Origin: a virus
Length of the DNA stretch: 48,189 nt
Direction: 5' to 3' (one strand)
IMG/VR virus record: IMGVR_UViG_3300046804_001530
Coordinates: 1-48,189 of that record
Below the pieces are notes generated by a model. That model did no database searches and had not been told where the DNA came from. It saw only the letters and a list, made by a program, of their open reading frames with translations. A program made the position numbers and the translations under genes. Shown here in pieces: positions 20,507 through 34,352 of the stretch (the stretch's first letter is position 1; every line of letters starts with the position of its first letter).

Positions 20507-20579
20507 TGCTCTATAACTCAATTGGCAGAGTGCCTGACTGTTAATCAGGGAGTTCTTGGTTCGAGTCCAAGTGGAGCAG
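20507..20579 (+). tRNA. tRNA-Asn (GUU)
   Basis: A full cloverleaf can be drawn: acceptor TGCTCTA / TGGAGCA, anticodon stem CCTGA-TCAGG with loop CTGTTAA (anticodon GTT), and a T-arm with GGTTCGAGTCC. Discriminator G at 20579. The 3' CCA is not encoded here, so the host would have to add it. Confidence 0.9.
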
Positions 20580-20583
20580 CAAT

Positions 20584-20658
20584 GCCACCTTAACTCAGCG
20601 GTAGAGTGCCATACTTGTAATATGGAGGTCAACAGTTCAAATCTGTTAGGTGGCTCCA
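20584..20658 (+). tRNA. tRNA-Thr (UGU), CCA encoded
   Basis: Acceptor GCCACCT pairs with AGGTGGC; anticodon stem CCATA-TATGG holds the loop CTTGTAA (anticodon TGT, reads ACA); the T-loop is GTTCAAATC. The 3' CCA is encoded. It lies 4 nt after tRNA-Asn on the same transcript. ACA is a frequent Thr codon in this AT-rich genome. Confidence 0.9.
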
Positions 20659-28064: not shown

Positions 28065-28376
28065 ATGATTAAAGCACCTGAAGATATTATAATTATCAAA
28101 TTAGATAAGAAGACATCGGAACCAGAACAAGCCAAGAGTGGTCTTCTAATTATCAAAAATGAAACAGACCAACCTAAAAATATTGGCACTGTATATGCTG
28201 TTGGCGAAGGAAGACTATTAAAAAATGGTGTTCGTGTGCCAATGGAAGTTAAGGTTGGAGATAAAATCATGTTCAATCCTAGCGGCACAATGAAGTTTAA
28301 GCATGAAGAAGAAGACTATCTATCTTTGTTTAGCATAAGTGTGTTGGCAATTCTTGAAGGAGAAGAAGATGAATAA
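28065..28376 (+). CDS. groES: GroES-like co-chaperonin
   Basis: 103 aa from ATG 28065. APEDIIIIKLDKK, SGLLIIKNE (with the mobile-loop position), GTVYAVGEG and VKVGDKIMFNP match GroES (cpn10). Phages such as T4 replace host GroES to fold a large capsid protein. No GroEL gene is seen, so it would work with the host chaperonin. Confidence 0.85.
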   Translation: MIKAPEDIIIIKLDKKTSEPEQAKSGLLIIKNETDQPKNIGTVYAVGEGRLLKNGVRVPMEVKVGDKIMFNPSGTMKFKHEEEDYLSLFSISVLAILEGEEDE

Positions 28377-29025
28377 AGTATTGCTAGTTGTTCCAACAAG
28401 GGGCAGACCAGAAAAATCAATTGAGTTCTACGAAGAATTTAAAAGAACATCAACTATCACAGATTTGGTATTCGGTCTGGATGATGATGATGTAGAGTAT
28501 CCTAGAATTGACGGGGTATTGTATGAAGTCAATCCTAGAGCCATGATGAATGGTACTCTTAATCTTATTGCTAATAAGTATGCAGATAAATACGAATATA
28601 TTGCTTTCATGGGTGATGACCACAGACCAAGAACTATTGGGTGGGACCAGAAGTTAGTTGATTCTATTGCTAATGTTAAAAATGGTATTGCTTATGGAAA
28701 TGATTTATTTCAGGGAGAGAATCTTCCAACTGCTGTATTGCTAAAATCAACCATTGTAAAAACATTAGGCTTTATGGCACCAACATCATTGAAACATCTT
28801 TATCTAGATAATTTCTGGAAGGATATGGGACAGGAATTAAATAGTCTAAGATACTTAGATGATGTAATTATTGAGCACATGCATTTTCTTATTGGTAAAT
28901 CCGAAGAAGATTCTGGATATGTAGAAGTAAATAGTTATGAAATTAGCAACCACGACAGGCTTGCCTATTTAGAGTATTGTCAATTTATGTTTGGCTTTCA
29001 TGCAGAAAGACTACGCCATAATTGA
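28369..29025 (+). CDS. Glycosyltransferase-like protein (GT-A fold)
   Basis: 218 aa from ATG 28369 with GGAG upstream. LLVVPTRGRPEKSIEFYEEF is the start of a GT-A Rossmann-type fold; GLDDDD (about 36) and FMGDDHRPR (about 79) supply the acidic metal-binding residues. First of five overlapping sugar genes. Acceptor and sugar unknown. Confidence 0.65.
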   Translation: MNKVLLVVPTRGRPEKSIEFYEEFKRTSTITDLVFGLDDDDVEYPRIDGVLYEVNPRAMMNGTLNLIANKYADKYEYIAFMGDDHRPRTIGWDQKLVDSIANVKNGIAYGNDLFQGENLPTAVLLKSTIVKTLGFMAPTSLKHLYLDNFWKDMGQELNSLRYLDDVIIEHMHFLIGKSEEDSGYVEVNSYEISNHDRLAYLEYCQFMFGFHAERLRHN

Positions 29026-29762
29026 AAAAGGTAATCTCTTATTGTTTATTTAATGACAACCCTGCCTATGGCATAGGGGCAATAAGAAATGCAATCTTGG
29101 CACAAATGTATATGCCAGATTGGGAATGTAGATTCTATTATCACAATGTAACTGATTTAACATTATCTGTTCTTAGAAGATTTGACAATGTTAATCTAAT
29201 TAATGTAAAACAAAAAACTGATATGTCTTTTACACTAACAAGGTTCTTGGCATTTGCAGACCCAGAAGTTGATGTAGCGATTGTTCGTGATGTGGATGCT
29301 AGAATTAGTGCCAGAGAAATTAAGGCTGTTGAGGAATGGTTGCAGTCAGACTTTGACTTTCACATTATGAAAGACCATCCTATTGGACATAGTTATGCCA
29401 TTAGTGCTGGTATGTTTGGAGTAAAAAACAAGGCACTAACTGTAATACAGGAACTGCTAGATGATTTCTTTAATTCCGTCAAGTATATGGCTATTATAGA
29501 CCCAGGTGTAGACCAAAAATTCTTAGCAGAAATGGTGTATCCTATTATTAGGGATAATGTTTTAATCCATAGTGAGCATTATGATGTAGAACTTTCTGGC
29601 AGAAGTGAGCAACGAAAATTTCCAACGGAAGACAGGTATCCTAAAAATCACATTGGTGCTGCACTAGATGAAAATGATAATTACAGATACGATTACGATA
29701 TAGAACAATCTGGTGGTAATAAATACCAATATGACTTTGATTTATTGGAGAAAAATGATTGA
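29022..29762 (+). CDS. Glycosyltransferase-like protein with DxD motif
   Basis: 246 aa, starting at TTG 29022 inside the previous stop. AYGIGAIRNAILAQMYMPDW, the DVDARIS motif near residue 90 and the HIMKDHPIGHSYAISAGM segment resemble GT families that work on cell-surface glycans. The C-terminus is Tyr/Asp-rich. Overlaps the methyltransferase gene. Confidence 0.6.
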   Translation: MKKVISYCLFNDNPAYGIGAIRNAILAQMYMPDWECRFYYHNVTDLTLSVLRRFDNVNLINVKQKTDMSFTLTRFLAFADPEVDVAIVRDVDARISAREIKAVEEWLQSDFDFHIMKDHPIGHSYAISAGMFGVKNKALTVIQELLDDFFNSVKYMAIIDPGVDQKFLAEMVYPIIRDNVLIHSEHYDVELSGRSEQRKFPTEDRYPKNHIGAALDENDNYRYDYDIEQSGGNKYQYDFDLLEKND

Positions 29763-30300
29763 ACGAGTTAGACCAGCATGGACAGACGAGGAACTTAAAA
29801 ACATCTATGACCATCAGTATGACCACACAACTTGGTGGGACCACATTGAAAGAATTGAGCACACCATTAGGATTGGCAATCTAGTTAAAAACTATGATAA
29901 CAAACTTAAAACTGTTGCTGATTTATCTGCTGGTGATGGAGCCATTGCCAATGGCATAGATATTCCAAATAAAATACTTGGAGATTTCTTTCCAGCATTT
30001 GAATATGTTGGCAAGATTGAAGATACTATCAAACAAATACCTAAAGTTGATTTATTTATATCCTCAGAAACACTGGAGCATGTTGACAATCCTTTAGAGA
30101 TGCTTAAGAGTATTAGGAAGAAGACCAGATGGCTACTGCTATCCACCCCAGAGAACAATTGGGGAGACCAGAACTTAGAACATTATTGGGCTTGGGATAA
30201 AGAAGGGGTACAAGAACTGCTAGAGAAAGCAGGATTTGAACCAGTATATTTTGAGAGTATCCCAATCTCTTATACACACCAGATATGGATTTGCAAATGA
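29755..30300 (+). CDS. SAM-dependent methyltransferase
   Basis: 181 aa from ATG 29755. Motif I is VADLSAGDGAIA (about 53-63), and SSETLEHVDNPLEML is the post-I/motif II region of class I methyltransferases of the UbiE/sugar type. It probably methylates a sugar or polysaccharide made by its neighbours rather than DNA, since no target-recognition domain is present. Ends on an ATGA overlap with the epimerase. Confidence 0.75.
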   Translation: MIERVRPAWTDEELKNIYDHQYDHTTWWDHIERIEHTIRIGNLVKNYDNKLKTVADLSAGDGAIANGIDIPNKILGDFFPAFEYVGKIEDTIKQIPKVDLFISSETLEHVDNPLEMLKSIRKKTRWLLLSTPENNWGDQNLEHYWAWDKEGVQELLEKAGFEPVYFESIPISYTHQIWICK

Positions 30301-31163
30301 AAATTTTAATTACAGGACACCGTGGCTTTGTTGGAAAATACTTTGTCAACAAATATAAAGACCATGACATCACAGGCGTAGATATCGCAGATGGAAATGA
30401 CGTTAGAGACTTCTTCAAAAACAATAGAGAGCATTATGATTTAGTTATTCATCTTGCTGCAATTGTTGGGGGTAGAGCAACAATCGAAGGCAATCCTCTA
30501 TCAGTAGCAACAGACTTAGCAATTGACTCAGATTTCTTTAACTGGGCATTAATAACAAGACCAGGAAGAATCGTATACTTTAGTTCTAGTGCTGCCTATC
30601 CAACTAAGTTCCAGGGAAATGAAGACTGGGTTCGCCTAGAAGAATCAATGATTGATTTGGATAATATTAGCAATCCTGATTTAACATATGGCTGGAGTAA
30701 ACTAACAGGAGAATACCTTGCCAAGTTTGTGCAAGAGGCTGGCATCCCTGTTCATATCTTTAGACCATTCTCTGGCTATGGAACAGACCAGTCGCTAGAC
30801 TATCCGTTCCCTAGTTACATTAAGAGGGCTAAGGACCGCATGGACCCATTTGAAATCTGGGGAGATGGAGAACAGACTAGGGACTTTATCCACATGTCCG
30901 ATGTCGTAGATGCTGTTGATGAAGCCATTAGACAGGATATCCAAGGACCAATAAATCTTGGATGGGGTCGTAGAACCACCTTCAATGAGTTAGCCAAAAT
31001 TGTTTGTGAAATTGAGGGGTATTCTCCAGAGTTCAAGCACCTTAAAGCAGCACCAGTAGGTGTGTTAAATCGTATCGCCAATCCAGCCAAGATGCTATCA
31101 TTCTATACTCCAAAAATTAGCCTTGAAGAAGGTATTGAAAGGGCTTTGAAGAACATTGTCTAA
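30297..31163 (+). CDS. NAD-dependent sugar epimerase/dehydratase (extended SDR)
   Basis: 288 aa from ATG 30297. The cofactor site G7-H-R-G10-F-V-G13, the LAAIVGG strand and the catalytic Y130-x3-K134 (TYGWSK) define an extended SDR close to GDP-fucose synthase or UDP-glucose epimerase. SRPFSGYG-like FRPFSGYGTD and DFIHMSDVVDA complete the family pattern. It would make an unusual nucleotide sugar for the flanking transferases. Confidence 0.85.
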   Translation: MKILITGHRGFVGKYFVNKYKDHDITGVDIADGNDVRDFFKNNREHYDLVIHLAAIVGGRATIEGNPLSVATDLAIDSDFFNWALITRPGRIVYFSSSAAYPTKFQGNEDWVRLEESMIDLDNISNPDLTYGWSKLTGEYLAKFVQEAGIPVHIFRPFSGYGTDQSLDYPFPSYIKRAKDRMDPFEIWGDGEQTRDFIHMSDVVDAVDEAIRQDIQGPINLGWGRRTTFNELAKIVCEIEGYSPEFKHLKAAPVGVLNRIANPAKMLSFYTPKISLEEGIERALKNIV

Positions 31164-31845
31164 GATAGGTCTAGTTATCCCATGGAGACCAACTCCAAGT
31201 AGATTAAAACCATTAGACATGGTGCTAAATTGGTATCAAACTAATTTACCAGACATTGAGGTGTTTTATAGCGACAGACCAGGACAATTCTGGCAAGCGG
31301 CAGCAAGTCGTAATGATGGGGTAAAAAGGGCACAGGAGGCTCACTGTGACGTTATTATTATCAATGACGCAGATACACTACCAGAAATTCAACCCTTGAT
31401 GGAAGCAATAGAAAATTGCCAAAAAGATGGCATGGTTCACAATCCATACAGGCTTTGCAGATATTATGACAAAGATGCAACAGAAAAAATACTAAATGGT
31501 ATTAGTGTTGATTTAGTTAGACATAGTAGAGAATTTAATGAAGCAAATGGCGGAATCTATGTCTGTACTCCAGAAGCATGGTGGTCTGTTGGCGGTATGG
31601 ATGAAAAGTTTATTCAATGGGGTGGAGAAGACTCAGCATTTGAATTGGCACATACAATTATTAAAGGTAATAAATTAATTAAACATGATGGCTGTATTCA
31701 TTGTTTAGAACATGACTATCAGATACATGATGATGGATTTGTATTTAATCATATTCGTAATATAGAACTATACTGGTTATATTATTCTGCATCTACGCCA
31801 GAACGAATGTTATCTTTGGTAAAACAGAAAACAATTAATGAATAA
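31156..31845 (+). CDS. Glycosyltransferase family 2-like protein
   Basis: 229 aa starting at TTG 31156. IGLVIPWRPTPSRLKPLDMV, the DxD-like INDADT near residue 68, and GGMDEKFIQWGGEDSAF near 145 match the galactosyltransferase-type GT-A enzymes (GT27/GT2). Last of the sugar operon. Confidence 0.75.
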   Translation: MSKIGLVIPWRPTPSRLKPLDMVLNWYQTNLPDIEVFYSDRPGQFWQAAASRNDGVKRAQEAHCDVIIINDADTLPEIQPLMEAIENCQKDGMVHNPYRLCRYYDKDATEKILNGISVDLVRHSREFNEANGGIYVCTPEAWWSVGGMDEKFIQWGGEDSAFELAHTIIKGNKLIKHDGCIHCLEHDYQIHDDGFVFNHIRNIELYWLYYSASTPERMLSLVKQKTINE

Positions 31846-32627: not shown

Positions 32628-33653
32628 TTACCCAATAGTTTTTATGATGTTCAGTGAGTTTGTTTTTACAGAACTGCCTAGCGGAGCATAGCCCAGAGTT
32701 GCAGCCTTGGCTGGCATACAAGTAGAAACAACATATTTAAACCAGTTTTGAATAGCCAAGCCTTTGCCAGTAGAGACCTTTTGAGATGCTGACCTTTTAG
32801 GAGCAAGACCATAGGTAACGATTGACAATTGGTAAGCACCAGAAACAACTTTATTGAAATCAATAGATATGGTTCCATCTGCATTTAGTATCTGGGCATT
32901 AATAAAACGACCAGCAGCAGAAGCGGTAGGAGCAATAAAAGCACCAGCAGCGTTCTTCAATTTGGCAATACCAACATCAGCGGTCATAGCGTCAGACAAG
33001 TCAAAATAACCAAAAGCATTTGAGTTATCTTCAATGTAGCCAGCAAGCAAAGCAGACGTAGCAAAAGATGTTGAATTAGATGTTAATGAATTACCAGAAG
33101 CGACTACCAGGTCATTACTTTTAGCAACCCATCCACCAACAGTTTGCGATAGATAATTAGTTAGATTAGCAGTGGTACCAGAGCCAGATGCACGATAGGC
33201 AACCTTAATAGTTTTCTTTGGCAACTTAACTCTAGGGTTGAGTGCTTTGAGTGCTGTGTCATCCCAACGAGTAATCTTACCCTTTAGGATGTCAGACACA
33301 ATCTGTGGAGTCAGTTGCAAGCCATCGCCCACACCAACTGCAGAATAAGCAAATACAACTGGACCACCAAAAAGCGGAACAGTAACGTAATCAAAACCAG
33401 GATAACCAGATGTATATGGGGTATCAGTAGCAGCCCAATCTACATTCTTATTGGCAAACTCAGTACGACCTGTGCCAGAACCAGTTGATGTATAGGTTAC
33501 ATTGTCAGTAGGATAAGAAGCAGTACAATTAGACAAAGCATTATAGGCAAATGATGAACCCTTGCCTGATAGGGACTCTGCAGCAAGTGCAGGGGTAGTA
33601 GAGGTCAATAGACCAATAGAAAGAACGACAGATAATATACGAGTAATCTTCAT
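32628..33653 (-). CDS. pstS: Phosphate-binding protein PstS
   Basis: 341 aa from ATG 33653. A signal peptide (ILSVVLSIGLLTSTTPALA) with an ALA-A cleavage site is followed by the PstS fold: GKGSSFAYNALSNC, STGSGTGRTEF and YRASGSGTTANLTNYL bind phosphate. It feeds the Pst ABC importer; pst genes in phages are auxiliary metabolic genes for phosphate-poor water. There is no lipobox Cys, unlike most actinobacterial PstS lipoproteins, so membrane attachment is unclear. It lies alone on the minus strand with a candidate PHO box. Confidence 0.88.
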   Translation of the reverse strand: MKITRILSVVLSIGLLTSTTPALAAESLSGKGSSFAYNALSNCTASYPTDNVTYTSTGSGTGRTEFANKNVDWAATDTPYTSGYPGFDYVTVPLFGGPVVFAYSAVGVGDGLQLTPQIVSDILKGKITRWDDTALKALNPRVKLPKKTIKVAYRASGSGTTANLTNYLSQTVGGWVAKSNDLVVASGNSLTSNSTSFATSALLAGYIEDNSNAFGYFDLSDAMTADVGIAKLKNAAGAFIAPTASAAGRFINAQILNADGTISIDFNKVVSGAYQLSIVTYGLAPKRSASQKVSTGKGLAIQNWFKYVVSTCMPAKAATLGYAPLGSSVKTNSLNIIKTIG

Positions 33654-33659
33654 ACTTCT

Positions 33660-33714
33660 ATTGTAGGGCATATGTTTGTTAACTTAGTTAATGACTGGTA
33701 AACGCAAGATGAAC
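33660..33714 (-). promoter_or_regulatory. pstS promoter with candidate PHO box
   Basis: On the minus strand, three direct repeats lie exactly 11 bp apart: GTTCATC (33708-33714), GTTTACC (33697-33703), ATTAACT (33686-33692). This is the spacing and half-site (GTTCACC) of actinobacterial PhoP boxes. The last repeat lies at the -35 position; the -10 is TACAAT (33660-33665), six bases before the ATG. Confidence 0.6.
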
Positions 33715-33758: not shown

Positions 33759-33787
33759 TTGACAAGCAAGCGAATATCCTGTACAAT
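33759..33787 (+). promoter_or_regulatory. Sigma70-type promoter of the glycosylase gene
   Basis: TTGACA (33759-33764), 17 bp, TACAAT (33782-33787). It is divergent from the pstS promoter and drives the gene at 33822. Confidence 0.7.
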
Positions 33788-33821
33788 TGATGTATAAGGT
33801 CCATTAAATGAGAGAGAGCAT

Positions 33822-34352
33822 ATGCAAACCTTTTTACCATACAAGCAGTTTGACAAGTCTGCCAAAGCCCTAGATTCTAAACGCCTAAACAAGCAGATTC
33901 TAGAGGGCTACCAAATTTTAAAAGTATTATCTAACGATGACCCACAGGCTGCTTGGCGTAATCATCCTGCTGTTAAGATGTGGCGTAACCACGAAGGACA
34001 ACTATGGCTATACATTATGGCTATGGTTGCCGAAGCAAATAAGCGTGGCATTAAGACTGACAAGAACGTAGAAAACCTTACCAATCTAAAGTCACTTGTT
34101 GGCGATTTGTGGGGGTATTCAATTCCTAAGTGGTATACTGACCCATTCGCATTAAAGCGACTAACCACTAGCCATAAGGCTAATCTATATACCAAAGACC
34201 CTATCTACTATGTAGATTTTTATTCGTCACTTAGCGACAGCAACCCTTGTTGCCCTGAACGCAAAGTGCCATGTAAGTATTACTGGGTTGCACATGACCC
34301 ACAATTTAAGGAGAACCATGAAATTACCAAAAATTTTCAGATGGCGAGTTAA
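33822..34352 (+). CDS. Pyrimidine-dimer glycosylase-like protein
   Basis: 176 aa. MQTFLPYKQFDKSAKALDSKRL, then WRNHPAVKMWRNHEGQLWLY, is the pattern of the Pyr_excise/endonuclease V-like family (T4 DenV relatives, called MSMEG_6728-like in actinobacteria). These remove UV-damaged bases, useful in sunlit water. Its divergent neighbour is pstS. A proven activity in this branch is not known to me. Confidence 0.65.
   Translation: MQTFLPYKQFDKSAKALDSKRLNKQILEGYQILKVLSNDDPQAAWRNHPAVKMWRNHEGQLWLYIMAMVAEANKRGIKTDKNVENLTNLKSLVGDLWGYSIPKWYTDPFALKRLTTSHKANLYTKDPIYYVDFYSSLSDSNPCCPERKVPCKYYWVAHDPQFKENHEITKNFQMAS

Follow-up and report, generated by a model that had tools for sequence, protein, structure and literature searches.

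Host-type PHO boxes upstream of a phage pstS gene suggest control by the phosphate-starvation regulator of freshwater actinobacteria

A pstS gene of host-lineage ancestry was identified in a 48,189-bp record of a lake phage (the window), where it is preceded by three direct repeats of the PHO-box type. We consider it probable (roughly 0.8) that these boxes represent an operator for the host SenX3-RegX3 (PhoR-PhoP) regulator, driving a leaderless pstS whose product feeds the host PstCAB permease. The initial annotation had proposed an actinobacterial PhoP box before this phage gene, and the proposal is supported by a regulator encoded near phoU in the likely hosts, by the same repeats in these hosts, and by conservation of the boxes in three related phages. 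Since the phage boxes match the phosphate switch of the likely hosts, the virus can probably read the host's phosphate-starvation alarm; from the sequences at hand, the best reading is an actinobacterial counterpart of the cyanophage pstS under host PhoB.

The gene (minus strand, 32628–33653) encodes a 341-aa protein with an N-terminal export signal and no lipobox, identified as PstS by homology and by the family profile PF12849 (E = 2.5e-26, over the cut-off); its SSF, GSG, D-P, and RxSGSGT phosphate-site motifs align with those of solved PstS. Against the NCBIfam equivalog TIGR00975 (E = 2.3e-46), it reached 158 bits, below the curated cut-off of 205 bits; the PstS of the host pst operon likewise fell below this cut-off with only 141 bits, indicating that TIGR00975 is badly calibrated for this clade. 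An upstream ATG at 33671, present in the ORF listing, was disfavoured as the start by the sister phage L225; the start is likely the ATG at 33653, because no start codon precedes the equivalent ATG in L225 and the proteins align from there. No nucleotide match was found among sequenced phages.

Read on the minus strand, the region before pstS is GTTCATC-ttgc-GTTTACC-agtc-ATTAACT-aagttaacaaacatatgccc-TACAAT-agaagt-ATG. Boxes 1 (33708–33714), 2 (33697–33703), and 3 (33686–33692) form three units with a step of exactly 11 bp, each consisting of 7 GTTCACC-like bp and 4 free bases, and a putative −10 (TACAAT, 33660–33665) is located 20 nt past box 3 and 6 nt ahead of the ATG. Both the 11-bp spacing of repeats that end at the −35 place and the −10 six bases from the ATG had been described in the initial annotation, and both were confirmed here (boxes starting at 33714, 33703, and 33692; TACAAT at 33665–33660; ATG at 33653–33651). 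If the transcript begins at the ATG at 33653, box 3 would occupy positions −39 to −33, at the −35 region before pstS. No −35-like hexamer could be found by eye at 15–19 bp from TACAAT, which speaks against a classical sigma-70 promoter for pstS. With a putative −10 this close to the ATG and nothing resembling a −35 hexamer at the expected spacing, the layout suggests an activator-dependent, leaderless promoter; no Shine-Dalgarno sequence precedes pstS in the window, so the mRNA is probably leaderless.

The motif is short and AT-rich and the window has a GC content of about 39%, a setting in which such repeats might arise by chance. Scored with a matrix trained on 14 different host pstC pairs and including no phage sequence (with the caveat that these pairs had been located via GTTNACC at 11-bp spacing, which is the published Streptomyces PhoP form; PMC7866108, PMC4415409, PMC6754071), the phage pair ranked first of 96,344 positions. 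It scored 18.2 bits for the boxes only and 22.1 bits with the spacer, as compared to 13.2 and 9.5 bits, respectively, for the next unrelated site; equal-or-better pairs in the dinucleotide-shuffled window amounted to 0.02 (boxes only) and 0.0025 (with spacer), and an equal triple was found in none of 400 such shuffles. The loose triple RTTNAYY-N4 ×3 occurs once in the window, at the pstS site; the 1.35 Mb of DNA from related phages contained neither this triple nor any pair scoring at least 15 bits. A chance origin is therefore highly improbable, and it is largely refuted by the conservation of the boxes in the related phages L224–L226. The loose pair alone is unspecific, as a genome-wide search with the loose box pattern in eight hosts yielded 0–4 matches per genome versus 0–4 for the control, with the pst copy included in six of the eight.

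While a search with PstS alone returned no close PstS relatives in viral contigs, a search with a five-sequence alignment identified six viral contigs with the same PstS type (L224–L229); within the polymerase-related phage group, one of 50 records carried pstS, many of these records being fragments. L224, L225, and L226 are syntenic with the window and retain the three boxes, the 20 nt, the −10 (TACAAT or TACGAT), the 6 nt, and the ATG at identical distances; the arrays read GTTCATT-ttgc-GTTTACC-agtc-ATTAACT in L224, ATTAATT-ttta-ATTTACC-ttct-ATTAACT in L225, and ATTAATC-tcta-GTTTACT-attc-GTTAACT in L226. Across the four sequences, the TT.A core of each of the three boxes does not vary (9/9 columns), and 15 of the 21 box columns are invariant versus one of the eight spacer columns (Fisher p = 0.007), which is a modest but clear test at this sample size; the 4-bp spacers drift and much of the flanks diverges. 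Box 1 is off consensus, most so in L225 (ATTAATT), and the best pair of L225 ranks only second in its own locus when the boxes alone are scored.

No recognisable repeat set was found in the pstS leaders of L227, a more distant relative, or of L228 and L229, which match the window only in pstS; these leaders have a Shine-Dalgarno sequence instead. As these contigs carry pstS without the boxes, the Pho wiring is not universal and the gene can do without Pho control. The initial annotation would have been contradicted by repeats that are not conserved in related phages; in L224–L226 they are conserved, and two other phage lineages with the same pstS lack them. A TTAACTAAGTTAACAAAC-like block (33668–33691, minus strand) is retained in all phage pstS leaders, even where boxes 1 and 2 are missing (L227 and L228); it runs into the Shine-Dalgarno sequence in L227 and into the −10 in the window group. 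The conservation of box 3 may be partly due to this longer block, which survives in L227 and L228. Another PstS type, about 30% identical and with unrelated upstream sequence, is found in L230–L238, which are mostly much larger viral contigs (many of 88–303 kb).

The boxes could also be a relic inherited with the gene, with pstS transcribed from the −10 or by read-through whatever the phosphate level; the presence of a putative −10 fits this explanation, as do L227 and L228, where pstS has a Shine-Dalgarno sequence and no boxes. We regard it as quite unlikely, given that the boxes and their spacing have been retained while the spacers and much of the flanks diverged (dS of about 0.35–1.25 among the four phages), and that no usable −35 is available to the −10. 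In addition, pstS of the hosts is preceded by about 110 nt of leader and by a strong Shine-Dalgarno sequence, whereas the phage pstS is a stand-alone gene with boxes 33–61 nt from its ATG and no Shine-Dalgarno sequence; with a layout so different, the phage leader is not a plain copy. The dN/dS of pstS is 0.07–0.16 in the same four phages, and the phage PstS is, by this measure, under purifying selection.

In the tree, the six phage PstS group together (100/99) and are nested in one host-genus subclade; pstS lies within syntenic phage loci and, by its phylogeny, comes from the host lineage. The nearest cellular PstS were found first in an actinobacterial MAG and then in the genus of this MAG (up to 69% identical), and are the PstS of the pst operon. 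Genomes of this genus are 0.8–1.6 Mb in size, those of the family mostly 2–4.5 Mb, and we infer from genome size and the literature that the host genus belongs to the Luna-type freshwater Microbacteriaceae; metagenomes have yielded phages that are presumed to infect these bacteria (PMC6802176). The host assignment is likely and derives from one acquired gene, pstS; a search for a link via DNA polymerase in the host genomes returned only cellular DnaE paralogs (about 30–54% identity) and was uninformative.

In the host genomes, the gene order is rbfA-pstC-pstA-pstB-pstS, where rbfA was named from its position after truB and had no family match. Each of the 18 host genomes with this region has an 11-bp repeat pair ahead of pstC that reads GTTAACC-N4-GTTAACC or nearly so; the phage-like subclade has GTTAACC-N4-GTTAACC, and the other genomes mostly have ATTCACC-N4-GTTAACC. 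Further 11-bp boxes are present in the pstB-pstS gap (e.g., GGTAACC-aaat-GTTAACC) and in the phoU-senX3 gap (GTTTACC-aaca-CTTAGCC-aagt-GTTAACC in the host locus L266, weaker in others); because the boxes of these two gaps had been kept out of training, they represent an independent check of the matrix. Next after the host pst operon comes a gene for a second conserved lipoprotein that resembles a degenerate PstS (L184:3417–4496, with equivalents at this position in other host loci; L082:1989–3077); this protein has an N-terminal TAC lipobox, shows a GTVTNWNQL motif in L082, and had no NCBIfam match, while the true host PstS has a plain export signal and no lipobox.

All 10 host genomes searched contain phoU, and in the loci that were read it adjoins two genes, one for a senX3-type kinase and one for an OmpR-type regulator; gpm and carD are located nearby (gpm, the kinase, and carD were identified by sequence inspection). 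The best solved relative of this regulator is M. tuberculosis RegX3 (2oqr; E = 5.9e-95), followed by MtrA (E = 1.6e-56), and it is most aptly described as a SenX3-RegX3 (PhoR-PhoP) ortholog, SenX3-RegX3 being the mycobacterial phosphate two-component system (PMC4415409). The likely hosts thus have both the box motif before their Pho genes and a matching candidate regulator. Several OmpR-type regulators are encoded by these hosts, and the phage boxes might serve another actinobacterial regulator whose site is similar, such as GlnR, MtrA, or another OmpR-family member, the gene then responding to another signal. Overlapping PhoP and GlnR sites are known in Streptomyces. Control by such a regulator appears unlikely, as the same host repeats precede pstC and pstS and sit between phoU and senX3, and as the phage gene is itself a phosphate gene.

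The close relatives L271–L273 have neither pstS nor the boxes and show a different minus-strand sequence at this site, yet they retain the divergent promoter TTGACA-17-TACAAT (33759–33787, plus strand) of the gene at 33822. Accordingly, pstS and its boxes behave as one exchangeable unit, outside of which the divergent promoter lies. The latter is a strong sigma-70-type promoter (33759–33822) and precedes a gene encoding a pyrimidine-dimer glycosylase (PF03013). A series of genes for glycosyltransferase, methyltransferase, and sugar epimerase functions adjoins pstS (28339–31845, plus strand) and varies among relatives; two phage tRNA genes, Asn (gtt) and Thr (tgt), are located at 20507–20658 (plus strand).

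Under control by the host SenX3-RegX3 system, phosphate shortage in the infected cell would lead to phosphorylation of the regulator, which would bind the three repeats side by side at the −35 region. The bound regulator would replace the missing −35 contact and recruit host RNA polymerase to TACAAT, and transcription from there would yield a leaderless pstS mRNA. The phage PstS, once exported, would deliver phosphate to the host PstCAB permease, and the phosphate gained may supply phage DNA synthesis.

Streptomyces PhoP binds PHO boxes built from 11-nt direct repeat units of GTTCACC (PMC7866108, PMC4415409), in line with the actinobacterial PhoP boxes named in the initial annotation. The phage boxes share with these the tandem unit of 7 conserved and 4 free bp and the pst gene downstream, and differ in being AT-shifted (GTTTACC, ATTAACT), in forming three units, and in their putative regulator, a SenX3-RegX3 ortholog adjoining phoU. 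With the pst operon of the small actinobacteria, the phage locus shares the PstS sequence and the type of 11-bp boxes that the hosts have before pstC and pstS. The known case of a phage gene under host phosphate control, to which the initial annotation had also pointed, has experimental precedent in marine cyanophages, where pstS of P-SSM2 is controlled by PhoBR of its host Prochlorococcus (Zeng and Chisholm 2012 and later work, as cited in PMC10976474); predicted Pho boxes in a cyanophage have also been found to be unreliable guides to PhoB binding (PMC10976474). P-SSM2 and the window both have a host-derived phage pstS with the host's own Pho-type boxes before it, and both probably use the host phosphate two-component system. 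However, the window belongs to another phage lineage with a host of another phylum, its putative operator consists of 11-bp GTTNACC repeats for RegX3/PhoP, its transcript probably has a leaderless start, and its control by the host is predicted from sequence; the cyanophage PstS are only about 25–28% identical to the phage PstS described here. No earlier report of an actinobacterial version was found in the open literature; subscription papers and preprints were outside this search, and priority is not proven.

It seems reasonably probable that phages of streamlined freshwater actinobacteria have independently wired a captured pstS into the SenX3-RegX3 regulon through a compact, three-box, activator-dependent, leaderless promoter, as a cassette gained and lost with the gene, which would represent a second, convergent case outside the cyanophages. 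If so, phages of small lake actinobacteria would show that reading the host phosphate alarm is a general strategy of viruses with more than one evolutionary origin, here with a different operator in an unrelated phage. The finding would also tie a large group of uncultured phages to a concrete host and provide an immediately testable promoter.
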